NCBI RefSeq assembly: GCF_019649055.1
Contig: NW_026570421.1
Coordinates: 62,001 to 126,000, forward strand
Reading direction: 5' to 3'
DNA: 64,000 nucleotides
Source of the DNA: Paramacrobiotus metropolitanus
Lineage: Eukaryota > Tardigrada > Eutardigrada > Parachela > Macrobiotidae
Shown in pieces: positions 14,460-59,150 of this stretch; position 1 is the first letter of the stretch; every line of letters starts with the position of its first letter. A model generated the notes under the pieces. It ran no database searches, was not told the origin of the DNA, and worked only from the letters and a program-made list of their open reading frames with translations. The position numbers were made by a program, and so were the translations under genes.

Positions 14460-15121
14460 ATGGCCAGCCTTGTCGAAACGAACCGTTCCTGTCAACATCC
14501 CCAGCGTGGGACAGCATCACTCGATGAAATATGGAAGATGGTCCTCAACATAAACTACCTGGCCATTGCCATGATATCGGTAGCTCTTTCCCGACTTGTT
14601 ATAATAGCGGCATCCGGCGGGCATCGACCGTTTTCATCATAGAGCATATTGCTTTCCTTGATTCCCTACATGTAGGTGTAATAACAGTAGCAGACGAACT
14701 GCCATTTAGGTAGCCCGCATTTTCAGCAGCAAAATAGAACTTATAACACCAGCGTAAGAATCATACGAATGAACTTAAAATAAGTAGTAGTCGCCTAGAT
14801 AACAAGAATCCCAGCGTGATCACACTTCCTACAAATTAGAGCTCGTTAAACATATGTGGCACTACGTAATAATTAACTAAAACACATTAATTTACGAAAC
14901 TTTAGGCGCATTTAATTTTGCAGCCCCCACCGAGTGGCATCCCCGTCCAGATCGCTTGCGCATTCGCCCTGGTACTGCCTCCCGTGATGTACGTGTTAAG
15001 CCCCATTGCCGCCGCGGTGCACGCTCTGCGGTTATGTTGGCAGGTTAAAGATTTCCGTTTGAAGAACGCTGGTAGGACGGTCGACCGGAAGAAGCTTAAG
15101 CAAGCTTCGAAAGCGTGGCTG
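14460..15121 (+). pseudogene. membrane-protein family gene, 5' part, split by the LTR element
   Basis: Exon 1 reads MASLVETNRSC..., then EIWKMVLNINYLAIAMISVALSRL, matching the family; a frameshift near 14610 is needed to reach EHIAFLDS and a donor (acat|gtaggt). Exon 2 starts after acceptor ttttgcag at 14924 and encodes the PPVMYVLSP...ALRLCWQVKDFR segment. It stops abruptly at 15121, exactly where the LTR begins. Coding resumes at 59727 after the GCTG target duplication, so the retroelement inserted inside this exon. Confidence 0.7.
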
Positions 15122-15693
15122 TGACGTGTGGGGGTAGGATCACACGCCGGGATGTACGTACGGATGCTGACTGTCCGCCTTCCACCTGCAACATACGGAT
15201 AATCTAGTCAATCTATGCTGTGATTTGCTGTTCTCTTTTACTAGCGGTGTATGTGATGTCATAACGCAGAGTCTATATAAGCTCCTGTCACTTCTAATAT
15301 CGGTATCGGTAGTCTGAGATTTACTTCTGAGACTGCTTTCTAATTACGATTTCCTAGTGTTGTGGACTACGAAGTGTATTGATAAAGAGGCAGCAATACT
15401 TGTTCCTACGGAAGTGCATAGTCGTTCCCGGATTATCGCTTAGTATACAGGTTTGCTCGTGACACAATCGTCCTAGCTCTTTGTTGATCCTCGTAGAAAC
15501 TGCGACCGGAGATCGTAGTTGGATTCTTCGTTAGGGATTCCCGAGCTCCCGTGTTCCCGAATCGTCCGTCGTTCCACCGTAGATTATCTGTTACAGTTTG
15601 AGAGTACGAGTGCCTACCGACTGAGCATTACAGGCGTGGAAGAGTAAAGATTGTTCATGGAGCCCTAACCGGCGTGAACGCTTATACACGACA
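15122..15693 (+). repeat. 5' LTR
   Basis: 572 bp, TGACGTGTGG...TACACGACA. Compared by eye with 59151-59722, one difference (G at 15348, A at 59377). Contains an ATF/CREB-like TGATGTCA at 15254 and a TATA box at 15274, so U3 spans roughly the first 180 bp (inference). Flanked on the left by GCTG. Confidence 0.95.
15254..15280 (+). promoter_or_regulatory. LTR core promoter (TGATGTCA and TATATAA)
   Basis: TGATGTCA (15254-15261) lies 12 bases before TATATAA (15274-15280) in U3 of the 5' LTR; the 3' LTR has the same arrangement near 59283-59309. It would drive the genomic RNA. Confidence 0.6.
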
Positions 15694-24543: not shown

Positions 24544-26142
24544 TTGAAGGAGGCATTGGTGACGGCGCCGGTCTTGGCCCGCTATGATCCAGAGGCTTTA
24601 TCGCGAGTTGTTGTGGATGCCAGCACTATCGCTGTGGGTGCAGTGCTTATGCAGTGCCCTCGGGATCACCCGACGGACGTGGCAACGAACTGGAGGCCTA
24701 TCGCATATTTAAGTCGTAGGTTAACAGAGACCCAGAAAAGGTTGTACTTCCCTACAGAACTTGAAGCTTACGCAGTCATTTGCGCCTTAAAGAAATGGAA
24801 ACATTATTTGTCTGACTACCAGTTTGAAGTCCAGACCGATCATCAGGCTCTGGTTTTCCTTAATAATATGCGCGATGCCGCTGGCCGCCTGGGGCGCTGG
24901 GCACTATACATACAGCAGTTTAATACTAAACCGGTCCATATCCCGGGCAAAGAGAATGTAATAGCTGACGCTTTAAGCAGAAACCCTGGAGAACAACCGG
25001 AACCCGACTCTGACGATTCGGATATTGAGTTTGATTATCGGCAGACTTACCCTTTTGCCGGTGATGCAGCGATGATTGAATGCTGTTTTGCGGTTTTGGA
25101 AAGAGACTATGCGGATATCCGCTTCGAGATGATGTCGGCCGATGTGAAAGCCATTTCTGAAGAGGACATGAAAGCCTTCGATGCAGATAAAGTCCAGAAG
25201 TTGATTACGGACGATAAAGCCTCCTATTGGGCTGAAGAGCAGTCTCGTGATGCGCGCATTGTTCGCTGGAGGTTACTCCTAGAAAATAAAAGGGAAAAAA
25301 TGTCGGAGCATGAGCACCTACATCTAAATAAGTTTGTAGTTAAACAAGGCGTCGTATACTACAAGTTCGAATTAAATCGGAAAATCTATTACTGTATGTA
25401 TGTGCCCGTGCATTGGCGCCTTCAATTTCTACAGGATAATCACGACTCACCTTTGGCAGCGCATTTAGGAGTTTTGGCTACTTATAAACGAATGTACAAA
25501 TACTTCTATTGGCCTCGCATGTTTGAGTCGGTCAGGAACTATTGTGCCTCCTGTGCGGCATGTCTTGCTCAGAATGTCCCCGCTACAGCTCCGGCTGGGG
25601 CTTTGCAGTCGAACCCGACAGTTCCTCCACGATTAGTGTGGGCAATCGATGTCGCCCCGGCTCTTCCAACGACGGAATCTGGAAACAAAAACATAATTAT
25701 AGCTGTCGATTATGGGAGTAAATATATCGTGGCGGAAGCTGTAGAAAGAAATGATGCTGCTACATTGGCGTTATTCTTTTATAAAAGGATATTAACGGTC
25801 TTCGGGATGCCTATTCACATTACGTCAGATCGTGGCAGCAATTTCATGTCAGAAATGTTTCGGGAGCTTCTTGCTCTTGCGGGTGTTGCTCACGCACCCA
25901 CGGCGTCAGGACACCAGCAGGGGAACGGTTTGGTCGAGAAGCGCGTCGGAGAAATTAAGAAGGCATTGGCGAAATACGTTAATGAGCAGCAAAGTGACTG
26001 GGACATTTTTCTCCCGGCACTTTGCGCTGCCTTTAACAGTAAAGTTGTGGAACGAACGGGCCGCACACCATTCTTCATGATGCACGGCACCGAGATGCGA
26101 TTACCTGTGAACAACTTTTTGCCTTTTGAAGAAGACTTTGTC
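24544..26142 (+). pseudogene. pol: RNase H and integrase, cut by the Polinton
   Basis: RNase H is recognisable from VVVDASTIAVGAVLMQ, FPTELEAYAVICALKKWKHY, TDHQALVF and NVIADALSRN. The integrase HHCC domain (about 25440-25560: AAHLG ... CASCAAC) is followed by the core with Asp in WAIDVAP (~25648), Asp in SDRGSNF (~25829) and Glu in GLVEKRVG (~25934). Coding stops at 26142, the last base of the TTTGTC target duplication. The open frame runs a few codons into the Polinton terminus by chance. The same gene resumes at 47643. Confidence 0.85.
26137..26142 (+). repeat. Polinton target-site duplication, left copy
   Basis: TTTGTC immediately before the element's AG terminus; an identical TTTGTC is at 47637-47642. 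Six base pairs is the standard Polinton duplication length. Confidence 0.95.
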
Positions 26143-26292
26143 AGAAGAGTACTCGCAGGATAAATGGCATTTTTTTGCGTCGGAATAGCATCCCCCGCCC
26201 CTTTCCCGCGTCGCAATAGCATCCCCCGCCCCCCGCCCGTACAAATAGCATGGACTTCCGTGGGGCGGGCTCTCTCTCTCTGTACTGTGTCT

Positions 26293-26336
<44 letters not shown>
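26143..26336 (+). repeat. Polinton left terminal inverted repeat
   Basis: About 194 bp: AG-rich tip, poly-T, two words (aatagcatcccccgccc) in tandem, a purine/pyrimidine tract, then (TG)n. It matches the reverse complement of 47454-47636 apart from one T in the poly-T run and the length of the TG run. Confidence 0.95.
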
Positions 26337-27394: not shown

Positions 27395-27525
27395 TCCCTG
27401 TAGGGGTACACTATCGCCGATTTTCCATGTAAGGGCACGTTCACGTATTACGTATGCTCTAGGGGGCCCCTGGATATTCCCTAGGGGGTTTCAGTATTGT
27501 ACTACTGCCCCCTAGGGGCTCCTTG
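27395..27525. repeat. cluster of CCTAGG-type palindromes
   Basis: Within ~130 bp: GTGTCCCTGTAGGGGTACAC, CTAGGGGGCCCCTGG, TCCCTAGGGGG and CCCCCTAGGGGCTCC. Another AACCTAGGGG and GGGTGTCACCC lie at about 28083-28115. Local dyad symmetry suggests protein-binding or origin elements (inference). Confidence 0.5.
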
Positions 27526-27546
27526 TATTCCTACACAACTAAGCAT

Positions 27547-28032
27547 GCCGAGTCGAAGTGAAGTACTCGGGGGCCTCGAACCCGGCTCCCTGAGGTCGCC
27601 ACCACGATATCTAACGTATATGGGCAGTTTTGAACGCCGAGTCGAAGTGAAGTACTCGGGGGCCTCGAACCCGGCTCCCTGAGGTCGCCACCACGATATC
27701 TATCGTATATGGGCAGTTTTGAACGCCGAGTCGAAGTGAAGTACTCGGGGGCCTCGAACCCGGCTCCCTGAGGTCGCCACCACGATATCTAACGTATATG
27801 GGCAGTTTTGAACGCCGAGTCGAAGTGAAGTACTCGGGGGCCTCGAACCCGGCTCCCTGAGGTCGCCACCACGATATCTAACGTATATGGGCAGTTTTGA
27901 ACGCCGAGTCGAAGTGAAGTACTCGGGGGCCTCGAACCCGGCTCCCTGAGGTCGCCACCACGATACCTAACGTATATGGGCAGTTTTGAACGCCGAGTCG
28001 AAGTGAAGTACTCGGGGGCCTCGAACCCGGCC
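27547..28032 (+). repeat. 89-bp tandem repeat, five full copies and a partial
   Basis: Units start at 27547, 27636, 27725, 27814, 27903 and 27992 (partial) and are almost identical (ctaacg/ctatcg, atatct/atacct variants). Each begins gccgagtcgaagtgaagtac and contains ctcgaacccggc, whose complement resembles a tRNA T-arm (GCCGGGTTCGAG). Homogeneity implies recent expansion. Confidence 0.97.
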
Positions 28033-28200
28033 GTGGGTGGTCACGATTGCGTTTACACACAAATTCAAGGCAACGCAAGGGAACCTAGGGGTTTCAAGTG
28101 GGTGTCACCCCCACATTAAGTGGCAACATCCGTTAATCACTACATTTGATCTTATTGCTTGAAATTTGACGGTAACTTGTTTTTTAAAAGGGGTACCATT

Positions 28201-29335: not shown

Positions 29336-32300
29336 ATGCGTAGATCAACGGTCGTTCCATTACAAGTACGGAATTACCAAACGGTCAACATGGAGATGAA
29401 TCATGAGATGAATAGTGACGATGGATTTAACTTCGATCTTTTTGTTAATCCTTATTCACCACTACCAGCGCAACCGCCGTCACCAATGCCAGGTCCATCT
29501 GGCAGTCGATTTTTCTGGTCGCAAGTCCATACTCCACCATCACTACCCGCAACCTCAGTCGACAATGGCCAGTCGCTATTAGCCGGACGCCAAAACGGAA
29601 GCGGTACTGAAGAAACATCTCAGGCTACGAACTCAAGCTTCCGCTGGTCACAAGTTCACACCCCGCCCCATTTTCCGGCACCTTTACAGACCGGTGGTAA
29701 CAACACAGATGACGCCACTGCAGCTAATGAAGTAGCGGTGGATGAGGCACTCAGCCCACCTGTTCTAGACCAAGCCGGACCAACCACGAACAATCCTCAG
29801 TCAGGACCGTCAACTTCCACACGTGACTGGTCCGATTCGTTTACTCTTAAACAGATTTCCCACAACCGATCCAAAAAGTTTAACCATCATCAGTATTTCT
29901 ACAGTTTAAAGATCAAGTCTCTACCTCGAGAATTCGATACCGTTACTTCGTTGCAAGCCCTACCAGAAATCTTTCAGGCCGTTTGGGAGCTGTGCTCAAA
30001 AGATTTCAATCCCACAGACGCGGTGTGCGTCACAATCTTCACGCAAACCATGGAAAACCCAATGCACCTTAAAATGCAGTTCTTCAGTAATTTCAATCCG
30101 CGGGATCTAACAGAGATGGTAATGAAAATCAATTCTGGTGGTCTTTTTTGCATTGACGACTCGCTGCGTTTGATCATTCAACGCACAGTTATTCCGGCCG
30201 GAGGCGCCTCAAAGCGCAAGCATATCCATTCGTCATCAGATCGGAAAAGATTTGCCCGATCTATCGTTCAGGTGAACGTAGGGGATAATCTATGTTTACC
30301 GGCTTGTCTTGTTTTGGGGGAATGCCATCACAATCCCACCAAAGACCGCACGTATTGGCGATCTCTAACCAACAAAACCAGCAAGAAATTACAGAAACTG
30401 GCCTGCCAGCTTGTACATGCAGCTGGATTGGATGTCGGTAAAAAGTTTTCCGTCCTGGACATCGAAAAATTTCAAAAGACAGTGTTAAAAGATTACCAGA
30501 TCAAAGTTGTTGGAGCTGATCAGGGTAACATTGTCATCGCTAAATTTCCTGAAAATCAAGGGAAGCTGAAACCGATGTACCTCCTTCATGAAGAAGGACA
30601 CTTTGACTTTATTACGACGCCCTCTGGATTTCATCAGCGTGGGTATTATTGTCACGGCTGTGACAAGGCATATGATCATAAAGAGGAGCACCGATGTTCC
30701 GGCTTTTGCCCAAAATGCTATAGACCCCGCGATAAATGCGCTGAACCGGAACCGAAAGATCGTGTATTTTGTGGAAGGTGTAAACGAGAATTTAACAACA
30801 ACCAGTGTTTTGATATCCATGAGCAACGACGAAAAAATGGACGTACTTACTGCGAAGATCTGTTTATTTGTCCGAAATGTGGAGTTTTCGTCAGTTTACT
30901 TACCCGCACCATCAAGCTTCATGAATGTGGAGAGATGTTCTGTCATATTTGTCAGGCATGGGTGAACCAAGCAACTCACAAGTGCTATCTTAAACCCCTT
31001 GAGGCACGTGATCATGGATCGGCGGACAGGTTTATCTTTTTTGATTATGAAACATTTTTGGACGCCGAAGGTGTCCATAAACCATGTTACGTTGTGGCTC
31101 AATATTCGAGCGGTGAAGAGTTCCGTTTTCCTCCTGACGGTGTTCCAATGGCTGGATACGACGTACAAAAAGAATTCGGTGAATGGGTGTTTTCGGAGCG
31201 GCACCGTGGCGCAACGTTAGTGGCACACAACTTCCGTGGATATGACGGACATTTCTTGTTGTCATACTTGATTGAGAACAACCTGAAAGGAGTCGAGGTC
31301 ATACGCCGTGGCAGTCAAATTCTTGACCTCCGGTATCCTGCCTTGGAAATAACGGCTCGCGATACCCTTAATTTCGTGATGACGAAACTGTCCAATTTTC
31401 CGAAGGCTGTTGGCTTGACTGATTGCGAATCCAAAGGCGACTTTCCACATCGCTTAAACAAGCCGGAAAACTGGGACAAAGTTCTTCCGTTTCCCGATGT
31501 CAGTGAATACATGGTGGACGGTCTGAAACGAGCGGATCGCAGACAGTTCGAACAGTGGCATGCAGAAGAAATGCAAAAGAAAGGTACGTTTCTTTATTCT
31601 TTTATGCTAAATATTGTCATTTTCCTAATCCTAGTAAAATTTTAAAGGGGTTTTCAATTTTCGTGCCGAGATGTCCGACTACTGTTCAAGAGATGTTACC
31701 GTACTACGAAAATGTGCTCTCCAGTTCCGTCAAAATTTCATCAGCATGACCAATGTCGATCCATTTTTGAACATCACTATAGCCTCTGCCTGCCAAACGT
31801 ATTATAAGACCAAACTGCTAAAACCTAAGGAGATTGCAGTCATTTCCGCAAATGGTTACCAGCCAAATAGAAAAACAAGTGCCGAGGCGACCCAGTGGCT
31901 GGAATGGATCGGATTGGATCATCCGAATATTCAGCACGGGAGAAACGGTAAAGAACGCAAGTTTGACCGATACTTTGTAGACGGCTTCGATCCGGACACG
32001 AACACTATTTACGAGTACAACGGATGTGTTCACCACGGACACCCTGCGTGTACCAATGAAGATGACCGGGCGCCGTTTTCGCTCAAGAAAATGTCGGAAA
32101 TGTACGAGCAGTGGATACGCAAGAAGCTTTATTTGGAAGGAATGGGTTACAATGTGGAAGAAAAGTGGTCTTGCGAATGGTTACAGGAAAGAAAAGATCC
32201 GGACATCCAGCAGTTTCTTTTGAATCAGAATCTACGTGACCCACTTCAACCACGCGAAGCCTTTAAAGGCGGTCGGACTAACGCCTCGTGCTTGTTCAAG

Positions 32301-33835
32301 GAAGTCGAAGAGGGAGAGCAAATCTTACATTACGACATTGTGTCGCTGTACCCTTTTATCAACAAAACGGCTGAATACCCCATCGGGCATCCTAAAATTA
32401 TCGTTTCAAATTTCAAGCCGGTTACTGAATACTTTGGATTTGTGCGGTGCAAAGTCCTGCCACCAGCCAGAATTCGCTTTCCTGTTCTGCCAGTCACCAT
32501 CAATAACAAGCTGGTGTTCACTTTGTGTCGTACATGCGCTGACGAGGGACTCAACAACTACTGCTCGCATACTGATGAACAACGGAGCTTTGAAGGCACC
32601 TTTTGTACTCCAGAGCTGCATATGGCTATCAGGCAAGGTTATCAGGTTAAAGAAGTGTACGAAGTTTGGCACTGGAGTGAAACCCGGGTAGGCCTGTTTA
32701 AAGAATATGTGGATATGTTCTACAAAGAAAAATTAGAAGCCAGCGGTTTTCCTCCCGGCTGGTCTACACAACAGCAGAAAGAGCGGTACGTTCAGGAAGT
32801 TGCCCTCCGTGATGGAATTTTTCTGGATATCAATCGCATTGAAGACAATCCTGCAAGACGAGCAGTTGCCAAGCTGATGCTGAATTCCTTTTGGGGAAAG
32901 TTTGGACAAAGAGACAATCTGCAACAAACTGTGTTCATCTTTTGCGTGAAACAATACCTTGATCTGATACGATCCAAGTCCGTCGAAATCCACTGTGTTC
33001 ACGCCGCAACTCCGGAGTGCATGATGGTCACTTATTCACAGAAAGACGACTACAACGAAGGCAGCAACTGTGCCAATCTTGCGATCGCAGCCTTTACTAC
33101 TAGTCACGCACGCATTCAGCTTTTCAAAACGATGGCCAAGCTCGGACCGCGCCTTCTGTATTTTGATACGGATTCCGTGATCTTCGTCCACAAAGAAGGA
33201 CGCTGGCTGCCCGATATCGGGAGCGGACTTGGTCAATGGAGCAGTGAGCTAAAGCCTGATGAGCACATTGTCCGGTTTGTGTCTTGCGGCCCGAAAGTAT
33301 ACAGTTACGAGACCAATACTGGTCGAATCCAGCTGAAGGTTAAGGGCATGACACAGAACGGTTACACCGACGACATCCTAAACGATGATCTTCAGCGCAC
33401 CGGAGAAAAGCTCGATTTCGCCAAATTAACCGAAATCTTGGAGGGAGCCACGCTGCCTGTACGTATTAATTAAAAACGAAAAACTTTACACCGTTATCAA
33501 TCATAATTTACCATTATCAATTCGTTTTTGCAAAGGTTGTTTACCCGGAATACATCAAACGGAACTTCAAAGCACAGGAAATTTCCACCATCCATCTGAA
33601 GAAACATCTACGCATGGTGTATGATAAGCGCGTGTTGCTGGAGGATTTCACCACAGTGCCTTTCGGTTTCAAGAACCCGGTAAGCGTGTTCAGTCACGTC
33701 TGTGCCGCTGTGTCAGATCGATAGTCAGATGTCAATGAAGAATGCAATGATACAAAACACTCAGGACGGTGCGCAGACTTTTATGCTTATATTCAGTTTT
33801 CTGTTTACTGCTCACAGGACCCGCAGCCACCGTAA
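29336..33835 (+). CDS. POLB: protein-primed DNA polymerase B (four exons)
   Basis: Exons 29336-31583, 31648-33458, 33536-33679 and 33818-33835 by splice sites and phase; introns 64, 77 and 138 bp. About 1406 residues. The N-terminus has two FxWSQVHTPP repeats, then a module with DNLCLPACL and a later GHFDFIT resembling an OTU-type cysteine protease, then Cys/His pairs. Exonuclease motifs: FFDYETF (Exo I), HNFRGYDGHF (Exo II), YCSRDV (Exo III, just after intron 1). Polymerase motifs: DIVSLYP (A), LMLNSFWGKFG (B), YFDTDS (C), ending with a TVPFGF block. Replicates the linear element from a protein primer. The stop TAA overlaps the next ATG by one base. The last intron is the least certain: without it the frame stops at 33724. 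Confidence 0.9.
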
Positions 33836-34701: not shown

Positions 34702-35235
34702 ATGGTGGATCCTAAAGATTTGGAACCTACGTATACGCATTATCGTCGTGACTATCAGGACGAGGTTGTCCTTTTCAATTCGAACATGGTGGACGTGAAT
34801 AAGCGCATAGAGACGTTCTTTGGCTTTTTAAATCTGTTCCCTGGTCAGGATATATACCAGGTGGCTGAGGCAGGGTTCTATCACCGCGGCGCTGGCCGGC
34901 TGTATTGTTTTACTTGCGGATTGGGGGTTGAAGATCTCCTACCTTTTGAGGATATCAGTGTGCATCATGCAAGACATAACTACATGTGTGACCATCTAAA
35001 TACTGTAGTTAGCAAAAAATTTATAAAAAACGTACTGGATGTGCAAGAGCAGCTAAGCGGATGGTTACTCAGTCGATGGAATCGGCGAGTTCTGAATTTC
35101 AATTGCGGTTGCGATGACTCCGAGGATCAAGTTGATGGGCCATATGCTCATTCCGATATGGAACTGGACAATCTGCCGGATGTCACTGAAGTGAAACCCG
35201 TTGATGGTGTGGATATCTGTCCCCCGTATCCTTAA
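34702..35235 (+). CDS. BIR-domain (IAP-like) protein
   Basis: 177 codons. A single baculovirus-IAP-repeat fold: RIETFFGFLN, then AEAGFYHRGAGRLYCFTCG, then HHARHNYMC, giving the CxxC...H...C zinc ligands in BIR spacing. No RING finger follows; the C-terminus is acidic. BIR proteins bind caspases or their antagonists and block apoptosis in animals and large DNA viruses (established knowledge), so the protein may keep host cells alive during element replication (inference). I chose the ATG after the pyrimidine-rich stretch at 34660-34690. Some core BIR positions differ, so caspase binding is not certain. Confidence 0.85.
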   Translation: MVDPKDLEPTYTHYRRDYQDEVVLFNSNMVDVNKRIETFFGFLNLFPGQDIYQVAEAGFYHRGAGRLYCFTCGLGVEDLLPFEDISVHHARHNYMCDHLNTVVSKKFIKNVLDVQEQLSGWLLSRWNRRVLNFNCGCDDSEDQVDGPYAHSDMELDNLPDVTEVKPVDGVDICPPYP

Positions 35236-35806: not shown

Positions 35807-35896
35807 ATGAATTTGTTCGAACATCTTATTTCCTATTATTATTTATAAAATCACCTAAGAAAAAAATGTAAAAAATCATAAAAAAGAAAAAAAAGA

Positions 35897-35967
35897 GGGC
35901 GTTGCCCCAAAATCTGCATTACTCTTAGCTTGTCTGCGGCCAAGCTAAAAGTATTGTGGTTTCTGGG
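35897..35967. ncRNA. conserved intergenic hairpin, copy 1
   Basis: Mini-hairpin GGGC-GTT-GCCC (35897-35907), then a long imperfect hairpin: TACTcTTAGCTTG pairs with CAAGCTAAaAGTA around the loop tctgcggc, with outer CCCCAAAA/TTTCTGGG. On the minus strand the mini-hairpin is followed by a long T-tract, as in Pol III termination. Compensatory changes with copies 2 and 3 support real pairing. Confidence 0.65.
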
Positions 35968-36088: not shown

Positions 36089-36126
36089 TATAAAAAGGTT
36101 ATGAAGGAACAGGTCTGAAATCAGTC
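36089..36126 (+). promoter_or_regulatory. TATA box and initiator of the TBP-like gene
   Basis: TATAAAAAGG at 36089-36098, and an initiator-like TCAGTC at 36121-36126, about 32 bases downstream, the expected spacing. Transcription would begin ~50 bases before the TBP-like ATG at 36176. Confidence 0.7.
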
Positions 36127-36175: not shown

Positions 36176-37243
36176 ATGATTCACCATATCATAACTGTTG
36201 TTGTGTTTGACTGCAAGTTTGATCTGCAGAAAATTGCATCGTCCACTAAGTGTACATCAGTGAAGGATTTTAAGGCGCTCAATCTTACATCTTATGATGG
36301 GAGCTATTGCCAAGTTTTCAGTTCGGGCAAAGCGATCATCAATGGTGGTACTTCTGAAAAAGAAGTACGCACACTGTTGAAGCGATACCGTTTTCGCTTA
36401 ACCCATCTTGGTTTTTCGGCCAAAGTTCTCAGCAAGCGCATTGCAAATATCATGGCGACGTACAACCATCAGCATCCTATTAATCTGTATAAATTTGCGA
36501 AAGCCAACAGCCTGTATTACGAGCCAGAACTGTTTGATGCGGCCCAAATGCGATACGACGATCTGGGAATCACGGTTAAAGTGTTCAGTTCGGGAAAGTG
36601 TACTATTTTAGGCGCCAAGAGTGTCAAAGCAGTAAATACTTGCATTGACCGCCTCCGATCCACTCTCCCGTCTAATCCGCCACCGTCTCCTGACTTTGAT
36701 GTAAGTGCCGTGCGCAAAAAACGAAAATCTGCTACTTTGGACATTGACGAGTTTGTCCAGAACCTGGAGGCGGAGCTCATGCGTGAGTCACAGGTTGGTA
36801 CCACCACCACCGCTATTCAAGGTACACAGACCACACCTCGCAAGCGCAAGCGGCTGCCGGCGACAGATATGATGAGCGAGTTCAAGATTAGTCCTAAATC
36901 TGTTAGTCGAAGTACGCAGACCACACCTCAGAAGCAAAATCGGACCAATCCAGTTAAGGTTGATTCGAGTCAGCCTGTTCAGGAGGAAAAGTCGTCCAAC
37001 GAGTTGGAAGAATGGCTGAATGAAATTGACAAATGTGCAGAGGAGGAGCCAGTCCTTACTTTATCACAATGCGATAAACTGGTTGCACAATGGGAAAATA
37101 ATTCCACCGGAATCGACCACCGTGACGAGTGCAAAACGGAAGACGATGAGCCAATTTTCACGTTAACACAGTGTGAGAAACTGGTTGCCCAGTGTCCTAA
37201 TAGAACTGGCGGCTTGTTTACCTTTCCGGAAGAATTTGTTTAA
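36176..37243 (+). CDS. TATA-binding-protein homologue
   Basis: 355 codons. Residues about 1-165 form the two-repeat TBP saddle: repeat 1 has CKFDLQKIA, QVFSSGKAIINGGTSEKEV and RFRLTHLGF; repeat 2 has YEPELF, then VKVFSSGKCTILGAKSVKAV. These are the most conserved blocks of eukaryotic TBP, including DNA-contacting F(S)SGK in both halves. The C-terminal half is specific to the element: basic patches (KKRKS, RKRKR), two STQTTPxK repeats and two LTxCxKLVAQ repeats in acidic sequence. It probably redirects transcription to the element's own promoters (inference). It has its own TATA box and lies between hairpin copies 1 and 2. AATAAA follows at about 37270. Confidence 0.85.
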   Translation: MIHHIITVVVFDCKFDLQKIASSTKCTSVKDFKALNLTSYDGSYCQVFSSGKAIINGGTSEKEVRTLLKRYRFRLTHLGFSAKVLSKRIANIMATYNHQHPINLYKFAKANSLYYEPELFDAAQMRYDDLGITVKVFSSGKCTILGAKSVKAVNTCIDRLRSTLPSNPPPSPDFDVSAVRKKRKSATLDIDEFVQNLEAELMRESQVGTTTTAIQGTQTTPRKRKRLPATDMMSEFKISPKSVSRSTQTTPQKQNRTNPVKVDSSQPVQEEKSSNELEEWLNEIDKCAEEEPVLTLSQCDKLVAQWENNSTGIDHRDECKTEDDEPIFTLTQCEKLVAQCPNRTGGLFTFPEEFV

Positions 37244-37454
37244 AAATTTCGGTTAATTTGCACTAATCTTAATAAAAAAATGAGTTTTTCACATCGCAAA
37301 CTTGACTTTTGCGACTTAACGTTTCCGTTGACTCTGCATGCATTGCTACACACTTTTCTGAGTTTTTCAAATACATGTTAGGCAGTTATTTGTATTCATT
37401 GTTCTGTTAAGAAAAACTCCATATATTCATTTCAAGAAAATGCGAAAAAAAAGA

Positions 37455-37525
37455 GAGCTGAATTGCTCCAAATCGGTAGAAGTTTTAACTTGCCTGCGGT
37501 CAAGTTGAATCTACTGCTGTTTTGG
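37455..37525. ncRNA. conserved intergenic hairpin, copy 2
   Basis: Mini-hairpin GAGC/GCTC, then TAGA...AACTTG pairing with CAAGTT...TCTA around the loop cctgcggt, outer CCAAA/TTTGG. Compared with copy 1, AGCTTG/CAAGCT has become AACTTG/CAAGTT and GGGC/GCCC has become GAGC/GCTC: paired substitutions. An A-rich tract precedes it, as in the other copies. Confidence 0.65.
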
Positions 37526-37601: not shown

Positions 37602-38231
37602 ATGGAGCGTGTAAATTTTGATTTTCGTTTCAAGACACCGTGTTCGGTGTACGTTTGTGGACCCACAATGTCTGGCAAATCCACTTTGATTATAAAGTTA
37701 CTGAAAGAGCCGCACAAGTACTTTTATCCTTGCCCCAAGCGTATTGTATATGCATACGGGAGTTGGCAGAATTTGTTCAAAGATTTCCCATCTTCTGTTG
37801 AATTAATATCTGATTTCAATAAGCTGTTTGAAGAAGGATTTTTCAACCCTGTTGTTCCAACGCTACTCATTCTTGATGATTTAATGGAAGAATTAGCAAA
37901 TAATGTAAAAGCCTCAACACTTTTCACGCGAGATGTGCATCATAAAAATGTGACTGCCGTTTTTATTTCACAAAATTTGTTTAAACAAGGAAAAAGCATG
38001 CGTGATATAGCAGTGAATTCTCAATATCTGATTTTGTTCAAAAGTGTGAGAGACATTCAACAAATTCGTGTCCTGAGTCGGCAACTTGGCGTGAAACATT
38101 TAGAGGACGCATACAAGAAGGCCATTAAGGAACAATACGGATATCTGATTATAAACTTACGACCTGAGACTCCGGATAATTTGCGACTCCAATCGCATAT
38201 TTTTAATCACAGGCGTATTTATACACCATGA
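37602..38231 (+). CDS. ATP: genome-packaging ATPase (FtsK/A32 type)
   Basis: 209 codons. Walker A GPTMSGKST near the N-terminus, Walker B LLILDD, and a sensor-like FISQNLF motif match the Polinton ATP protein, which pumps the genome into capsids (established knowledge). Length is typical. Its stop overlaps the next start as ATGA, opening a run of overlapping genes to 44308. Confidence 0.93.
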   Translation: MERVNFDFRFKTPCSVYVCGPTMSGKSTLIIKLLKEPHKYFYPCPKRIVYAYGSWQNLFKDFPSSVELISDFNKLFEEGFFNPVVPTLLILDDLMEELANNVKASTLFTRDVHHKNVTAVFISQNLFKQGKSMRDIAVNSQYLILFKSVRDIQQIRVLSRQLGVKHLEDAYKKAIKEQYGYLIINLRPETPDNLRLQSHIFNHRRIYTP

Positions 38232-38548
38232 ATCCATCAGAAATTTTTGATATAGTTCGCGCATTGCAAACAATGTCACCCATACAGCGCAGGAACTATT
38301 TTGCACGATGTACCAAGAAACAAATGAGTGCTATAGAGGAGGCATGTTTAAATTTGTTAAAAAATTCAGCCAGTCTTAGCAAAACAGAAGTCCAGCAAGC
38401 TAGAAAATATGCAGCAAGCATTAAGCGACTGGCAAACCGCGATATTCCGCAAAAACGGAAACAGAAAATTTTGCAGCAAAAAGGCGGATTTCTTGGTGCC
38501 TTACTACCAATATTAGGAACACTGTTATCTACATTCATTGCAAAATGA
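38228..38548 (+). CDS. small virion protein with hydrophobic tail
   Basis: 106 codons. Helical, basic N-terminus and a Gly-rich hydrophobic end (GGFLGALLPILGTLLSTFIA) like small Polinton/adenovirus-type core or membrane-active proteins. ATGA overlaps on both sides place it in the morphogenesis block. Exact role inferred. Confidence 0.7.
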   Translation: MNPSEIFDIVRALQTMSPIQRRNYFARCTKKQMSAIEEACLNLLKNSASLSKTEVQQARKYAASIKRLANRDIPQKRKQKILQQKGGFLGALLPILGTLLSTFIAK

Positions 38549-39669
38549 AAACGTATGTGCTCGTACCGGAGACAGAATATAATACGGTGATGAAGCCGTG
38601 TCCAACACCCTGGACGAAAGCGTATCAAATTCGAAGCGAGATCGAAAGACATTTGCAGCACCAAGACAACACCGAAACAAACCCTGGTGTACAAAAGCCT
38701 CCTCAATTGGATCTGGTAGCCTCGCAACCGACACCGGTATCAATCCAAACGGAAATTTCTAGTGCACCGTTGCGGTCAACCATTACTCACGATCATGCCG
38801 CACAAGTGGATACCGTACCCATGGTTCAGTATTTTCCCGAACCTAAACCTCTAACGGTAGACACTCAAGTACAATCCGATCCAATCGAACATACGGTTCA
38901 GTATATCGAAAAGGAAAAGCCTGTATATTACCCGGTGTCCGTGCCACAGTATATCAATGTACCGGGAAAACCAACTGTGCGGCATGTTTATAAACCGCAT
39001 CCAAAAAATAAACGGATTTCCAAGCAGGCCCGTATTAAAAATACATCTAGTACAATGCGGCAACCAAATCTGTCTAAAATTACTAAAGGACCAGCATTAC
39101 CTGTCCTGTCTTACAACACCCTAAACCCGCAGCCTGTGTATCAAAATGTTCCAACGCTCCCAGCAGGCAATCCGTACTGGGAATTACGCAGTCCTTCTCC
39201 TACGCTGGCTTTAGCTGACAATACTACTGTGCCGAATGTTGAATGGCCAGAAAGTGACGATGATTTAGATTCTTCATATGCGATGCCACCCGCAGCCTTA
39301 GTACAGCCTTTAACGTACGAGCAGCCGCAGCTACCCACTAGTTCAAACCGAAAAGCTATCACATATGCGCAGCCACAATTGCCAACGTCTCAGCAGTTGG
39401 AAGCTTTGACTTACGAGCAGCCAAGTATTGCAGCACCTGCGGCCAGAAAGGCACTTACTTATCAGCAGCATAGTTTGCCAGCACCGGCAATCACGCCAGC
39501 ATTGACATATAGGGCACTAAATAAAACCCCCGTTCCAGCAATTTTATACAAGCCAGAGGAAATAGTGCCGCTGCGAAGCAAAAAAGCCAGGAGTGATAAC
39601 CAGCCTCCAACAAAGAAACGTAAAACACAACACCAGACAGGCGGTGGTGGTTGGATATCTTTTGCATAA
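38545..39669 (+). CDS. proline/glutamine-rich protein of the virion block
   Basis: 374 codons. Begins MKTYVLVPETEYNTVM, a VLVP opening I associate with an uncharacterised Polinton virion protein. The long middle is Pro/Gln-rich with near-repeats of LTYEQPQLPTS (four or five copies near the C-terminus) and ends in a KKARS...KKRK basic cluster. Probably structural or scaffold (inference). Stop and next ATG overlap as TAATG. Confidence 0.65.
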   Translation: MKTYVLVPETEYNTVMKPCPTPWTKAYQIRSEIERHLQHQDNTETNPGVQKPPQLDLVASQPTPVSIQTEISSAPLRSTITHDHAAQVDTVPMVQYFPEPKPLTVDTQVQSDPIEHTVQYIEKEKPVYYPVSVPQYINVPGKPTVRHVYKPHPKNKRISKQARIKNTSSTMRQPNLSKITKGPALPVLSYNTLNPQPVYQNVPTLPAGNPYWELRSPSPTLALADNTTVPNVEWPESDDDLDSSYAMPPAALVQPLTYEQPQLPTSSNRKAITYAQPQLPTSQQLEALTYEQPSIAAPAARKALTYQQHSLPAPAITPALTYRALNKTPVPAILYKPEEIVPLRSKKARSDNQPPTKKRKTQHQTGGGGWISFA

Positions 39670-40736
39670 TGGTTTCATTGGATGATTTGTATTTGGACCC
39701 CTCTAACCCAGGTAGCTTGGGCGGAGTTCAGCGTCTGTACGCGGAAGCTAGTAAACACGGATTCACAAAAGAGCAAGTTGAACGATACTTGCAGTCAAAA
39801 GACACCTACACCGAACACCGGCCGCACCGCTCAAAATTTAAAAGAAGAAAAATCATATGTGTCGGTGTAAACGATCAACATCAAATTGACCTTGCCGATA
39901 TGCAGAAGTTTTACAAGGAAAACGATGGAGTAAAGTACTTGTTAACATGCATAGATTGTTTCTCACGATATGCATGGGCGATGCCTGTAAAATCGAAGAA
40001 ACCAAGGGAGATCGTTCGAGCGTTGGAAAAAATCTATGGAGATTTACGTACACCGCCGCTAAGATGTCAGAGCGATAATGGAAAAGAATTCACAGCAACG
40101 GAAGTTAGAGATTTCTTTCGCGATTGTGGAGTTACTTTTTTCACCACTAAGAACGACGACATAAAGTGTGCGGTGGTGGAGCGCTTCAACAGAACGCTCA
40201 AGGACAGACTTTATGTCTATATGACAGAGAAACAGACCTACCGATACCTGGATGCACTGGATAATGTAGTATTAGCATATAATAACAGCGTGCATTCGGC
40301 TATAGGCTTTGCACCAAGTGAAGTGGACGTAGAAGAAGCTCGCGTAATTCGGGGAAAAATGCTTGAGGAAGATGAAAAGGATACAATTAAACCTCCTGTT
40401 TTTGCTGTTAACGACTATGTGCGGCTTGCCAAAAATAAACTTACGTTTGAGAAAGGCTATGAAACAAACTACACGGAAGAGCTTTTTAAAATAGTAAAAG
40501 TTGTCAAGAAAGGAAAGCAATGGTTGTATGCAGTTGAAGATTTATCAGGTGAAGCAGTGGACGGCTTGTTCTATCGTCAAGAGTTGTCGAAATTTATTAT
40601 GACTGAACGACCAGGTCATAAAATATCACGGATATTAAGGACGAGAAAGCATAAAGGAAAGGAACAATATCTCGTGCGATGGTATGGTTACGGACCAGCT
40701 TATGATTCATGGGAAGATAAGGAGAATCTAAAATGA
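39669..40736 (+). CDS. INT: Polinton integrase with C-terminal chromodomain
   Basis: 355 codons. Retroviral-type DDE core: Asp in QIDLADM, Asp in CQSDNGKEF and Glu in VVERFNRTLKD, with typical spacing. An SH3-like region follows, then a chromodomain (YLVRWYGYGPAYDSWEDKENL, shown in part) at the C-terminus. It joins the element to target DNA, giving the 6-bp duplication, and the chromodomain may guide it to methylated histone (established for the family). ATGA overlap with the penton gene. Confidence 0.95.
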   Translation: MVSLDDLYLDPSNPGSLGGVQRLYAEASKHGFTKEQVERYLQSKDTYTEHRPHRSKFKRRKIICVGVNDQHQIDLADMQKFYKENDGVKYLLTCIDCFSRYAWAMPVKSKKPREIVRALEKIYGDLRTPPLRCQSDNGKEFTATEVRDFFRDCGVTFFTTKNDDIKCAVVERFNRTLKDRLYVYMTEKQTYRYLDALDNVVLAYNNSVHSAIGFAPSEVDVEEARVIRGKMLEEDEKDTIKPPVFAVNDYVRLAKNKLTFEKGYETNYTEELFKIVKVVKKGKQWLYAVEDLSGEAVDGLFYRQELSKFIMTERPGHKISRILRTRKHKGKEQYLVRWYGYGPAYDSWEDKENLK

Positions 40737-41572
40737 GTTTTTACATGTCACTACCCAGTTCTGCATCCAAGACGATATTCCCGGATAATCGTCCTGGCTG
40801 CTATACGACACAACTCGTCCGTTCAATTGACTTGGACGGATCGTGGGAGGTTGGACTTTCTGAACTAATTCTCCCGCCAATGGAAATGCGTTTTCAGTCA
40901 GATCTAAAGGTTGGGATAAGCAAACCATATATGCCGACTTTTGAAGTGCGTACGCTGCCAAGGAAATTATTCTATAGAGATGAATATGATTTAATCAGTA
41001 GCGTAAACGAAATGCTCACATACAATCCGCGTTTTGCTCGCAATTTGGACTTTCGCTACAGCAACCACGACTTGATTAACAGAGAGCCTAAAGATTTACC
41101 CCAAACAACGGAAGACGAAAAAAAGCAGTATGAAAAACTCCCTTTTGCAGCCATCAAAATTCAAGGAGATCATGGACAGCTTTTCGTGCGCGGTGACAGT
41201 CAAGTTATATTTGAAGGAGCGGAGTATACACGTGCCCTTGGATTACACGATAATTATCCTTATATGGGGATTGAAAAGGAACCCTTCGTGTTACGTCCAC
41301 CAAAACATTGTCGCATTGTGAACATTTACTGTGATTTAGTGGAATATCAACTCGTAGGGGATGCAATGGTCCCTGTTCTGCGCACGTTGTGTACCGAAGC
41401 CAGTTCATACGATGGTACTGTTCTGCGCTTTGAGAATCCACATTATTTGCCTGTTCAAAAACAGACATTTAGCTCAGTGGAGATTGAAGTGACTGACGAC
41501 AGAGGAGAAGAAATACGATTTCATAGCGGAGTAGCAGTGATTAAGTTACATTTCAGACCAAAAAAATATTAA
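40733..41572 (+). CDS. minor capsid (penton-like) protein
   Basis: 279 codons. Opening LPSSASKTIFPDN, then WEVGLSELILPP and IVNIYCDLVEYQLVGD, matches the Polinton/adintovirus penton pattern; single jelly-roll fold expected. Forms capsid vertices (family knowledge). Two bases separate it from the next gene. Confidence 0.85.
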   Translation: MSFYMSLPSSASKTIFPDNRPGCYTTQLVRSIDLDGSWEVGLSELILPPMEMRFQSDLKVGISKPYMPTFEVRTLPRKLFYRDEYDLISSVNEMLTYNPRFARNLDFRYSNHDLINREPKDLPQTTEDEKKQYEKLPFAAIKIQGDHGQLFVRGDSQVIFEGAEYTRALGLHDNYPYMGIEKEPFVLRPPKHCRIVNIYCDLVEYQLVGDAMVPVLRTLCTEASSYDGTVLRFENPHYLPVQKQTFSSVEIEVTDDRGEEIRFHSGVAVIKLHFRPKKY

Positions 41573-41574
41573 GC

Positions 41575-42021
41575 ATGGTACTGAAAGAGCACCATTTTAG
41601 CGAATCTCGCTACACAGATTTATTTGCCAAACAGCATGGCTTCGGTATGCCGAAATACCGAGGCGCCCCAGTTTTTGGTGGGAGCTTCTGGGGGCGGGTG
41701 ATTGGATTTGCTAAAGGTCTATTTAGCAAAGCTGCACCATACATTTCGAGCCTTGTAACTAAAGCACAACCACATATGAAGACAGTTGCTTCTAAGGCAG
41801 TGGAGTCGGTCATCGATACAGCAGTAGAAAAAGTTAACAAAAAGCTAAAAGAGTCCGCCGGCGAAGAAATGGGCATTAAGGGAGGACGCAGGCGACGGAG
41901 AGTACGAAGACACAAAGCGCAGAAAACACGTCGACAAGCAAAACGCACGCCCAAACGAAAAGGAACAAGAAAACGAACCAAGCGACAGTTAGCCATCGAC
42001 GCTATCGCTAATAGATTTTGA
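41575..42021 (+). CDS. basic virion protein with amphipathic helix
   Basis: 148 codons. Gly-rich start, amphipathic hydrophobic helix (FWGRVIGFAKGLFSKAAPYI), then a strongly basic tail (GGRRRRRVRRHKAQKTRRQA). The layout recalls adenovirus pVI/core-type proteins and the Polinton PX class: membrane-active helix plus DNA-condensing tail (inference). Lies just before the major capsid gene, as is usual. Confidence 0.75.
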   Translation: MVLKEHHFSESRYTDLFAKQHGFGMPKYRGAPVFGGSFWGRVIGFAKGLFSKAAPYISSLVTKAQPHMKTVASKAVESVIDTAVEKVNKKLKESAGEEMGIKGGRRRRRVRRHKAQKTRRQAKRTPKRKGTRKRTKRQLAIDAIANRF

Positions 42022-42030
42022 CAAAAAAAA

Positions 42031-43383
42031 ATGGCAATGATCGAAGCAAACTCGGAGCCTTCAATGCTTCTGGAAAGCCATCTATTCTACCTACCGGCAA
42101 CACTGACAGAAAGATGGAATACGAAGGACTATGACATTGGACCAGCTCAAGCAACATTCGATTCAGCAAACGATATTGTTTTTACTATTGCTCCCTCTCT
42201 GAGTGAGTTGGTGAGCCTAGCGGATATTAGATTTAAGTGTGACTTGCACGTTACGAATAAGGATGGCGCAGATTTGAAAGACTCGGACTGTCTGGCACCA
42301 ATTAACAACATTTTGCACAGCTTATTCCAATCTGTCACCGTTAGTATCGGTGGCAGGAATGTCACGGATACAAGCACGCTGTATCACTACCGTGCGTATC
42401 TAGAGTCGCTGCTAGGCTTTACGGATCAAGCTCAAAAATCGCAGCTATCTCTATCAGGATTTGCATTAGATAATAACTGGGAGAAGAAACCAGGTCATGT
42501 AACATCAGCGGATGCGGCGAAAGTGAACCGTTTCTGTAGCGATGGAGCTAACAAACGGCGCGATTGGCTACAGAATATGAAACCGTTACAATTGTCAGGC
42601 AAGCTGCACTGTGATCTGTTTCAACAAGAAAAATCACTCCTGCCTGGAGTTGAGCTCACAATTAAATTGGTGAGGAATAAAAATGAAGTGGTTTTTGTTG
42701 CTGACAGTGATAGCAACGCCCCAAAAACTGTCGCTATAAGAAATCCACGTTTGCAAGTAAGAAAATTTGAGCCATCTCCGGATTATTTTACCGCACTGAG
42801 CAAACAACTACTCAGCAACACAGCCAAATATCACATTGAGCGAGTGGTGATGCGTGAACATACACTTATTCTTGGACAGCAACAGGCTGTTTGGTCCAAT
42901 ATTGTAATGGGACAGTTGCCGAAAATTATGATTTTTGGCCTAGTGCCTAGCCGATCGTTTGCCGGCGAATATGCATCATCACCATTCAATTTCACGCACT
43001 GCAATTTAACGAACATTGTTGCCGAGATTGACGGTCAGCTATTTCCCACACAAGGCTACAATTTAAACTACGAGAAAGGCAGCTCTATACAAGGCTATGA
43101 AGGCCTGCTTGATACACTTGAACGTCTTAACGAAGGAGCGGGCGAATTACCAATAGACCGTGAACAGTACAACAAGGGGGGATTCTGCCTATACGGTTTC
43201 GATTTCACACGTGGACACACAGGACGAGGAGCAATGTCCTTATCGCGTCATGGAAATCTGAACATACATTTGAAATTTGCTAAGGGTTTGGAGGAAAATG
43301 TTGTCTGTGTTGCCATGCTAGTATTCGATAACGTTATAGAAATTAACAATAATCGTCAAGTCATTTTTGACTTTGCACCATGA
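42031..43383 (+). CDS. MCP: major capsid protein (hexon-like, double jelly roll)
   Basis: 450 codons. Polinton major capsid pattern: an early LADIRFKCDLHV strand, SVTVSIGGRNV, a central VRKFEPSPDYF block and a final VVCVAMLVFDNVIEI strand. Length fits the family. Preceded by an A-rich spacer before the ATG; its stop overlaps the protease start as ATGA. Trimers would form the icosahedral shell (family knowledge). Confidence 0.88.
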   Translation: MAMIEANSEPSMLLESHLFYLPATLTERWNTKDYDIGPAQATFDSANDIVFTIAPSLSELVSLADIRFKCDLHVTNKDGADLKDSDCLAPINNILHSLFQSVTVSIGGRNVTDTSTLYHYRAYLESLLGFTDQAQKSQLSLSGFALDNNWEKKPGHVTSADAAKVNRFCSDGANKRRDWLQNMKPLQLSGKLHCDLFQQEKSLLPGVELTIKLVRNKNEVVFVADSDSNAPKTVAIRNPRLQVRKFEPSPDYFTALSKQLLSNTAKYHIERVVMREHTLILGQQQAVWSNIVMGQLPKIMIFGLVPSRSFAGEYASSPFNFTHCNLTNIVAEIDGQLFPTQGYNLNYEKGSSIQGYEGLLDTLERLNEGAGELPIDREQYNKGGFCLYGFDFTRGHTGRGAMSLSRHGNLNIHLKFAKGLEENVVCVAMLVFDNVIEINNNRQVIFDFAP

Positions 43384-43877
43384 ACAACATACAGATTCAA
43401 GACGCACTGCAGAGAGATCCGAAGATCCGCGAGATTTTTATCGGAGTGTATTCTGCCAACAGAATCCCAGACAAGGAATTTCCCGGCGCTTACATTGTCA
43501 ATACGGAGGTGGAGGGCGATCCCGGACAGCACTGGGTTGCATTCTACTGTGTCTCACCAGGCATACTTGAGGCTTTTGATTCGTACGGTGAAAACCCGTC
43601 CGTTTACTCGCAGCATATCAAGAACTGGATGGGGGACGACTTTATTATTTTATCTAACACGGAGCGACAAAGCGTAGACAGCACAGTATGCGGCCAATAC
43701 TGTATGTTCTTTGTTACTCTACGCTGCTACGGATATACATACAAGGATGTCATGTCAGCGTTAACCAAGCATAAAGGAGTGAACGATGTGTTCGTATGCA
43801 AATTTATTAACAAGTTTTTCAGTATGCGAACACGAGTGAAAGACCGGAACTTTATAAATGGACTTCTCAAAAATTAA
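43380..43877 (+). CDS. PRO: adenain-like cysteine protease
   Basis: 165 codons. Catalytic His in GQHWVAFYC, Asp/Asn-type residue in FDSYG, and Gln-Cys in STVCGQYCMFF fit the Ulp1/adenain clan. Processes capsid proteins during maturation (family knowledge). The next gene starts 20 bases before its stop. Confidence 0.9.
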   Translation: MNNIQIQDALQRDPKIREIFIGVYSANRIPDKEFPGAYIVNTEVEGDPGQHWVAFYCVSPGILEAFDSYGENPSVYSQHIKNWMGDDFIILSNTERQSVDSTVCGQYCMFFVTLRCYGYTYKDVMSALTKHKGVNDVFVCKFINKFFSMRTRVKDRNFINGLLKN

Positions 43878-45513: not shown

Positions 45514-45577
45514 ATATATTTTTCCCAATGAAATAAATAAAAAAAGCAAAAAAAAAATATCAAAAATGCAAAAAAGA

Positions 45578-45655
45578 GGGCGTTGCCCCAAATTAGTGAC
45601 GGTCTTAGCTTGTCAGAATAATTGACAGACAAGCTGACATCGTTACTATTTTGGG
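45578..45655. ncRNA. conserved intergenic hairpin, copy 3
   Basis: Mini-hairpin GGGC-GTT-GCCC, then TAGTGACGGTcttAGCTTGTC pairing with GACagaCAAGCTgacATCGTTACTA; outer CCCCAAA/TTTTGGG. The outer stem sequence differs completely from copies 1 and 2 but is still complementary. The A-rich lead-in is shared. Confidence 0.65.
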
Positions 45656-47453: not shown

Positions 47454-47485
<32 letters not shown>

Positions 47486-47636
47486 AGACACAGTACAGAG
47501 AGAGAGAGCCCGCCCCACGGAAGTCCATGCTATTTGTACGGGCGGGGGGCGGGGGATGCTATTGCGACGCGGGAAAGGGGCGGGGGATGCTATTCCGACG
47601 CAAAAAAAATGCCATTTATCCTGCGAGTACTCTTCT
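47454..47636 (-). repeat. Polinton right terminal inverted repeat
   Basis: About 183 bp, reverse complement of 26143-26336, ending ...CTCTTCT. TTTGTC follows at 47637-47642. An open frame starting inside this repeat and running into pol is accidental. Confidence 0.95.
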
Positions 47637-47642
47637 TTTGTC

Positions 47643-58473: not shown

Positions 58474-59150
58474 CCTTGAATAACCTTTCGATGATCTGTT
58501 GTTGTTTCCTTTTGATCTCACCGGTATTACTGGTTATTGTGCTGTTTGGTATATCACCTTAATGCATTGGAGCTGTATTACTTTCCGTTGTTGTTGCTCT
58601 TTTTATTGGTTTCTACTTCAGTGTTGGTTGACCCATATTATGCACTTATGATCTTTATGTCACTATGCTTAGCTTGTTTGTTATTGTTGATTGACCTTGT
58701 TGCTGTGGTCACTGGTTTTCGAGAATTCGTAAGAATACCAGCCGGTTGATTTCACGGTTCCGTTTGTTTAAACCATAGTACAACAACATCGAATCGAGTG
58801 TAATTTTATTTTTCAGTTTTAATCATACCATTAGTAAAGCTTTATGCCGTGTACTGTATATATAACCACACCATCTAAAAACGGCACATGCAGTACAAGT
58901 AATTCATAGTTCGCCTTCCTGGATCCTTGGACCTCCGCCCTGCCAAACCCGTGGACTTCCGGATGCCATTTCGCCAAGGATTCCACACACTAACTCATTC
59001 GGAATCGTGGCGTACAGTCACATCGGGCATCGGATGGACACGTGGATTGTGCGGTGGATCGGGATCAGGATGGATGGATGTGCACAATCGCACTGGGATG
59101 TTGCGGGATGGATTGTTTATATTGGCACGGCCAAGCATCGTTCGTGGGGG
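58474..59150. other. 3' untranslated region of the LTR element with short polypurine tract
   Basis: No gene. TATATATAA lies at about 58857. The end, ...CGTGGGGG immediately before the TG of the 3' LTR, is the likely plus-strand primer, though short for a polypurine tract. Words rich in ggat/tgga recur from 58920 to 59110. Confidence 0.5.

Follow-up and report, generated by a model that had tools for sequence, protein, structure and literature searches.

A TATA-binding-protein gene carried by Polintons of the tardigrade Paramacrobiotus metropolitanus

The Polinton at 26143 to 47636 and its TBP gene

The window analyzed here is a stretch of 64,000 nucleotides of the P. metropolitanus genome. 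It contains a Polinton of 21,494 bp (positions 26143 to 47636) with ends AGAAGAGTACTCGC, whose limits are given by its identical ends and by a 6-bp target-site duplication, TTTGTC, present at 26137 to 26142 on the left and at 47637 to 47642 on the right. The left terminal inverted repeat (26143 to 26324, forward strand) pairs with the right one (47454 to 47636, reverse strand); the outer 34 bases of the two ends are identical, beyond which a T run differs in length by one base, and a perfect inverted repeat of 155 nt follows, the left arm of which (26170 to 26324) matches at 100%. The element is inserted into a Gypsy open reading frame (ORF) that encodes RT/RNase H and integrase domains. Two direct repeats of 300 nt (15114 to 15413 and 59143 to 59442), which are 99% identical and lie 44 kb apart, are probably the LTRs of the retroelement holding the Polinton. 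A tandem array with an 89-bp period was also observed on the left side of the Polinton (27458 to 28120).

All of the genes described in this paragraph are on the forward strand. DNA polymerase B (29336 to 33473) is encoded by two ORFs, 29336 to 31645 and 31671 to 33473, with matches to DNA_pol_B_2 at E values of 4.9e-08 and 1.5e-31; the split is probably due to a short spliceosomal intron at 31584 to 31647, starting with GTACGT. A protein with a BIR (inhibitor-of-apoptosis) domain follows at 34702 to 35235 (Pfam BIR, E 3.8e-07), and its 59 genome matches include many located beside other TBP-bearing copies. Downstream of the gene under study is a cluster of nearly touching or overlapping genes (37602 to 43877), beginning with a putative packaging ATPase (37602 to 38231; Walker A motif GPTMSGKST; AAA_22, E 0.058, below the cut-off) and containing a retroviral-type integrase with a chromodomain (39669 to 40736; rve, E 3.5e-13; Chromo, E 1.2e-09), a putative major capsid protein (42031 to 43383), assigned from its place and a weak DJR-like match (E 0.067, below the cut-off), and a putative adenain-type protease (43380 to 43877; Peptidase_C5, E 0.049, below the cut-off). 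A comparison of the putative capsid protein with the PDB gave no match, and PHROGs returned nothing useful. While the ATPase, capsid, and protease are all subthreshold in Pfam, gene order and co-occurrence are in line with these assignments. The seven junctions of the cluster have gaps of −4, −4, −1, −4, 2, 9, and −4, an arrangement unusual for animal genes that suggests a single polycistronic transcription unit. An earlier note on this DNA had called the carrier a Polinton, an assignment borne out by the polymerase, the rve integrase with its chromodomain, the terminal inverted repeats, and the duplication on both sides.

Five small ORFs of the element (starting at 33835, 35375, 44460, 45085, and 45721) resemble distant paralogues of one another, with 14 to 20% identity, and fall into no known family. 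A homologue search with one of these ORFs found none, and a PC4-like identity for the five was dropped as unsupported (best PDB match of the profile, E 0.52; model pLDDT, 47.7). A search of a defence library gave no match.

The gene under study, an ORF at 36176 to 37243 on the forward strand, runs from ATG to TAA without a break and encodes 355 amino acids; many stops are present in the corresponding register of the other strand. The earlier note had read it as a TATA-binding protein (TBP) homologue with both saddle repeats and an element-specific, repeat-rich tail, and each part of this reading was upheld. Pfam family PF00352 matched the protein in two stretches, which correspond to the saddle repeats, at E 1.1e-25 and 89.7 bits, the curated cut-off being 22.9 bits, and sequence matches to solved TBPs had E values of about 1e-13. 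The motif VFSSGK is present in both repeats and YEPELF in the second. The saddle core comprises residues 1 to 165 (36176 to 36670), and the predicted model of residues 1 to 160 had pLDDT block means of 83 to 98 and reproduced the saddle fold of human TBP (1cdw_A; E 1.3e-14; rmsd, 1.5 Å). PDB structures matching at an E value of ≤0.001 (n = 44) were 23 to 30% identical, apart from one fusion chain at 21%, and included TBP within Pol III complexes. The remainder of the protein (36671 to 37240) is an element-specific tail, modeled mostly with low confidence, that contains basic KRKR-type stretches and two internal repeat pairs, one at 37030 to 37092 and 37132 to 37194 (73% alike) and the other at 36814 to 36853 and 36904 to 36943 (78% alike).

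Spread, ancestry, and conservation of the TBP genes

The whole genome (169.8 Mb; 533 contigs, with the window on contig C201) was searched for TBP and for Polinton genes. The TBP of the window (P0001) gave 124 matches as a query and the Pfam TBP family gave at least 150; merging of these matches produced at least 182 clusters, some of which are fragments and which include the host's own TBP on contig C4 as well as the window copy. Polinton gene searches detected at least 150 ATPase, at least 122 integrase, and at least 100 capsid matches. Among the matches listed, 132 of the 182 TBP clusters had an ATPase, integrase, or capsid match no more than 15 kb away, compared to an expectation of 5.9 derived from the 3.2% of the genome occupied by the flagged stretches. 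A TBP was similarly present within 15 kb of 119 of the 149 ATPase, 87 of the 111 integrase, and 74 of the 91 capsid clusters, again among the matches listed; not every scored Polinton has a detected TBP.

Three arrangements were found, with the ATPase on the same strand and at most 800 bp downstream of the TBP (62/182 clusters), on the same strand and 3.5 to 8 kb upstream (41/182), or on the other strand within 500 bp (13/182). This search of other Polintons, which the earlier note had proposed, thus extended the gene well beyond the element of the window. For 50 of the 182 clusters, the matches listed included no Polinton gene at a distance of up to 15 kb. One of these, on contig C128, has an ATPase, an integrase, a capsid (41% identical), and a protease opposite the TBP, and the C128 element is thus also a Polinton. 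In one genome, diverse members of a Polinton lineage of tardigrades have a TBP of their own as a standing, selected gene. One of these proteins has entered the databases under another guise: NCBI protein P0002 (92% identity, with 48% of the query covered) is listed as a TATA-box-binding protein-like gene of P. metropolitanus but is a Polinton TBP, and the annotation should be read with this in mind. The name of P0002 also pointed to a tardigrade as the host; a nematode host was rejected, a pattern for the SL1 leader having given no match. The saddle of the host TBP (C4:406165-406668) is in two reading frames split at an A run, due to either a sequencing error or an intron. Two further host loci, L055 and L056, contain TRF2/TBPL1-like exons.

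In order to place these proteins, a profile was built from 20 Polinton TBPs. At an E value of ≤1e-5 it detected 72 proteins, including P0002 and 29 metagenomic proteins (P0006 to P0034) with 33 to 52% identity to the first profile row; seven scans of viral contigs turned up no relative. The contigs of P0014, P0015, and P0035 are 19 to 22 kb long, which is the size of a Polinton. A first tree of 93 rows was reduced by 17 to a careful tree of 76, in which a branch with support of 100/98 separated the Polinton rows (n = 20) and metagenomic rows (n = 27) from the host TBP and the other eukaryotic and archaeal-type rows. This tree is unrooted and was made without named mirusvirus, giant-virus, or animal TRF2 rows. 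In AU tests, a constraint uniting the host TBP with the Polinton and metagenomic rows was rejected (P = 0.0029), as was one that also took in P0005, the row nearest to the host TBP (P = 0.021); the groups tested were picked after sight of the first tree, and long branches are in play. The comparison with host TBP, one of those that the earlier note had called for, thus sets the Polinton TBPs apart from it; they would appear to have split long ago from this and from other cellular TBPs. The tree being unrooted, they might instead derive from a eukaryotic TBP that evolved fast.

Residues of the saddle were compared between 49 rows (20 Polinton and 29 metagenomic) and 36 other rows. At four aromatic positions, which we take to be the DNA-kinking phenylalanines of TBP, the 49 rows had Phe in 49, Phe or Tyr in 49 (14 and 35, respectively), Phe in 48, and Phe in 49; the TBP of the window has Phe at all four. 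Two threonines of TG pairs, presumably DNA contacts, are replaced by Asn in 48/49 rows and by Leu in 48/49 rows, substitutions found in 1/36 and 0/36 of the other rows, respectively. The Asn of the second repeat, assumed to be a minor-groove contact, is kept in 48/49 rows, while the window protein has His in place of the first-repeat Asn. Retention of the kink aromatics and of the second-repeat Asn across the family suggests that DNA bending has been selected. Within the group containing the window protein, the EPEL stirrup is also kept (first E, 10/10; second E, 10/10; L, 9/10), and it is less well kept in the other group. The basic helix of cellular TBP, which we take to be the binding site of TFIIA or NC2, is not kept.

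The core is under purifying selection. Its dN/dS ratio was 0.04 to 0.24 in the 11 pairs that gave a ratio, with 8 of the 19 pairs being saturated, and 0.03 to 0.13 in a further set of four pairs. For the tail, three pairs gave values of 0.11, 0.09, and 0.07, and the closest pair gave 0.61.

Polintons pick up genes, and one explanation to be weighed is that a single element recently acquired a copy, or a retro-pseudogene, of the TBP or TRF2/TBPL1 of its host. We regard it as very improbable. Grouping with the host TBP was rejected by the AU tests given above, identity is only about 30%, and the gene is intact and constrained in many elements; the host exons at L055 and L056, moreover, read FQTGNTTITG where the element family has an aromatic residue and LG, which argues against TRF2 as a recent source. 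The earlier note had envisaged a recent host copy, restricted to one element and unconserved, as the outcome that would tell against it, and what was found differs from this on all three counts: ancestry (P = 0.0029), spread (132/182, among the matches listed), and constraint (core dN/dS, 0.03 to 0.24).

Repeated uptake of a TBP by different Polinton lineages would account for the three gene places (62, 41, and 13 of the 182 clusters), and a clade of the 20 Polinton rows alone was rejected in the AU test (P = 1e-47). This rejection, however, arises solely because metagenomic relatives are interspersed among the Polinton rows; the Polinton and metagenomic rows together form one side of the 100/98 branch and share the two rare substitutions at the TG threonines. 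Repeated uptake consequently seems improbable to us.

Promoter motifs and the possible role of the TBP

A TATA box, TATAAAAA, is located at 36089 to 36096 on the forward strand, 87 bp before the ATG of the TBP gene. The consensus TATAWAAR occurs at only two sites on either strand of the Polinton, this one and one at 35022 inside the BIR gene, so that the former is the sole intergenic copy. Nine unit starts were tested, and no TATAWAAR was found within 150 bp of the other eight. Over the whole window this consensus is no commoner than chance (16 sites, 12.4 expected), and the argument from the TATA box consequently rests on its place and not on number. A TATA variant shared with neighboring genes, which the earlier note had suggested looking for, was not found at these starts, as the TBP unit alone has a TATAWAAR.

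A different cis motif is common to three promoter regions of the Polinton. On the forward strand, it is present upstream of the TBP gene as AAAGAGGGC-GTT-GCCCCAAA (35892 to 35911), 130 bp ahead of the ATPase match and of the cluster with the capsid gene (37450 to 37472), and upstream of a 134-aa ORF (45573 to 45592). The TBP-side copy is followed by an imperfect inverted repeat, found by eye, at about 35910 to 35962. The pattern AAAGAGRGC-N3-6-GCYCCAAA had three matches in the window, compared to 0.00 expected, and 45 in the genome, compared to none for the reversed pattern. Of these 45 sites, 19 lay at most 200 bp upstream of an ATPase match and 8 at most 400 bp upstream of a TBP; a further 10 were about 2.1 to 2.2 kb downstream of a capsid match, and 8 were elsewhere. 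The motifs are candidate promoters and may act as terminators as well. A looser pattern, TTGCYCCAAATNRGT with two mismatches, was rejected as no better than chance (2 matches; 2.05 expected). A separate observation concerns AAAGAGGGCGAATGCCCCAAA, which occurs in inverted pairs 8 to 9.5 kb apart and away from scored Polinton genes (C6:1979848/1989333, C16:786445/794305, and C108:401649/409776; also C36:759266 and C159:118069); these pairs are perhaps the ends of another element sharing the cis motif.

In related elements, a palindromic TATA sequence, TATATAAAG, lies within an inverted repeat upstream of the TBP. A pattern for it had 46 genome matches, compared to none for the reversed pattern, and for 34 of the 46 a scored TBP came next, no more than 1.5 kb away, the distance being 43 to 45 bp in 30 cases; for 10 of the other 12, a match to a Polinton gene (ATPase, integrase, or capsid) lay no more than 8 kb further on. 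The pattern is absent from the element of the window and, as far as seen, marks the TBP promoters of the related group alone. The arms of the inverted repeat were compared in six sequences, a small set of related members, in which 83 of 83 cells paired and 5 of 14 pairs changed on both sides. The arms covaried, with a score of 0.424, compared to 0.225 in shuffled versions (none of 500 as high) and 0.024 to 0.133 in slid versions, while further pair types were not above the shuffles (226/500). In arrangement B, the ATG of the TBP gene abuts an upstream ORF, and TBP need not be an early gene there. No clear TATA box was found upstream of the TBP at loci L045 and L046.

The suggestion in the earlier note that the element controls its own transcription through its TBP is plausible. 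No RNA polymerase gene was seen in the Polinton, and the protein would hence act in the nucleus as an alternative TBP. The explanation that we favor, with somewhat better than even confidence, is that this alternative TBP is itself read from a host-type TATA box and brings host TFIIB and Pol II to the promoters of the element. Host TFIID would first read the TBP gene from its TATA box; the TBP produced would then bend DNA at element promoters and, binding host TFIIB via its retained EPEL stirrup, would recruit host Pol II. The altered central DNA contacts and the altered basic helix may confer other site preferences and release from the regulators of host TBP, and the tail may serve in activation or in contacts with partners. 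Transcription would in this way pass from early genes to late ones, among them the ATPase, integrase, and capsid. That the other unit starts lack a consensus TATA box is in keeping with a changed specificity or else speaks for another role of this TBP.

One such role would be directed at the host: the protein might block or titrate TFIIB, the partners of TFIID, or the TATA boxes of the host without serving element promoters, the aim being to shut down transcription of the host or of rival elements or to escape silencing. The TFIIB stirrup kept in the window group, the eight unit starts that have no consensus TATA box, and the presence in the same element of a BIR protein, whose gene is of a kind directed at hosts, are all compatible with this idea. 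A decoy, however, would not need all of the kink aromatics and the second-repeat Asn that are kept family-wide, and we consider a host-directed role unlikely. Since TBP serves three polymerases, it might also work with another polymerase or process, either as a TFIIIB-like factor for Pol III or in replication or the targeting of integration, and the structure matches do include TBP in Pol III complexes. The position of the TBP gene ahead of long protein-coding units argues against this, and such a function appears distinctly improbable.

Beyond the alternative-TBP explanation lies a bolder proposal, which we put forward tentatively and regard as somewhat doubtful: that a lineage of animal DNA transposons has a private core-promoter system, in which a TFIID-free TBP with its own specificity, switched on by a host-readable TATA box, steers TFIIB and Pol II to inverted-repeat promoters. 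The Polinton would then be the smallest genome known to us with its own TBP, one that would have split off before or near the divergence of the eukaryotic and archaeal TBPs.

In eukaryotes and archaea, the initiation of transcription centers on TBP. A 21-kb transposon that retains a divergent and strongly constrained TBP, in a genome where well over 100 such copies exist beside one host TBP, offers a natural set of alternative TBPs together with the promoters that match them. This set makes it possible to test how a selfish element might build a promoter class with a single protein, how the specificity and partner contacts of TBP can drift, and whether the TBPs of large DNA viruses arrived by way of Polinton-like elements.

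Comparison with known systems

The element of the window shares with Polinton/Maverick transposons the DNA polymerase B, the rve integrase, the terminal inverted repeats, and the 6-bp target duplication, to which the putative ATPase, capsid, and protease may be added; it differs in that genes for TBP and BIR proteins are found across its lineage. The earlier note knew of no TBP described as standard Polinton cargo, and none was described in the literature searched, which consisted of titles, abstracts, and passages, with most subscription journals lying outside it. In the part of one source that was available, Maverick is named among tardigrade DNA transposons, in a list only (PMC11071193).

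Cellular TBP (PF00352; a subunit of TFIID and TFIIIB) has the same whole saddle fold, kink aromatics, and YEPELF stirrup. The Polinton TBP differs from it in having about 30% identity, in the replacement of the two TG threonines by Asn and Leu, in a basic helix that is not kept, and in the addition of a mobile-element tail. TRF2/TBPL1 and other animal TBP paralogues are alternative TBPs for subsets of promoters, a role similar to that proposed here, but in a motif comparison the TRF2-like exons of the host at L055 and L056 did not have the Polinton TBP substitutions.

The mirusviruses and giant viruses likewise provide virus-type genomes with their own TBP. In the passages available, TBP is given for 59% of mirusvirus genomes and, for that gene cluster, 0% of Nucleocytoviricota (PMC10132985), and a TBP is mentioned for megavirus chilensis (PMC11464507). 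Viral structure models matching the Polinton TBP at an E value of ≤0.001 (n = 38) were 8 to 23% identical to it, compared to 23 to 30% for the PDB matches (21% for the one fusion chain). In contrast to the Polinton, these viruses have genomes of hundreds of kilobases, and many bring an RNA polymerase or TFIIB. A parallel as integrated elements is found in those of Cymbomonas, of putative mirusvirus origin, which also contain TBP genes, described as sporadic there in the part of the source available (PMC10675990).
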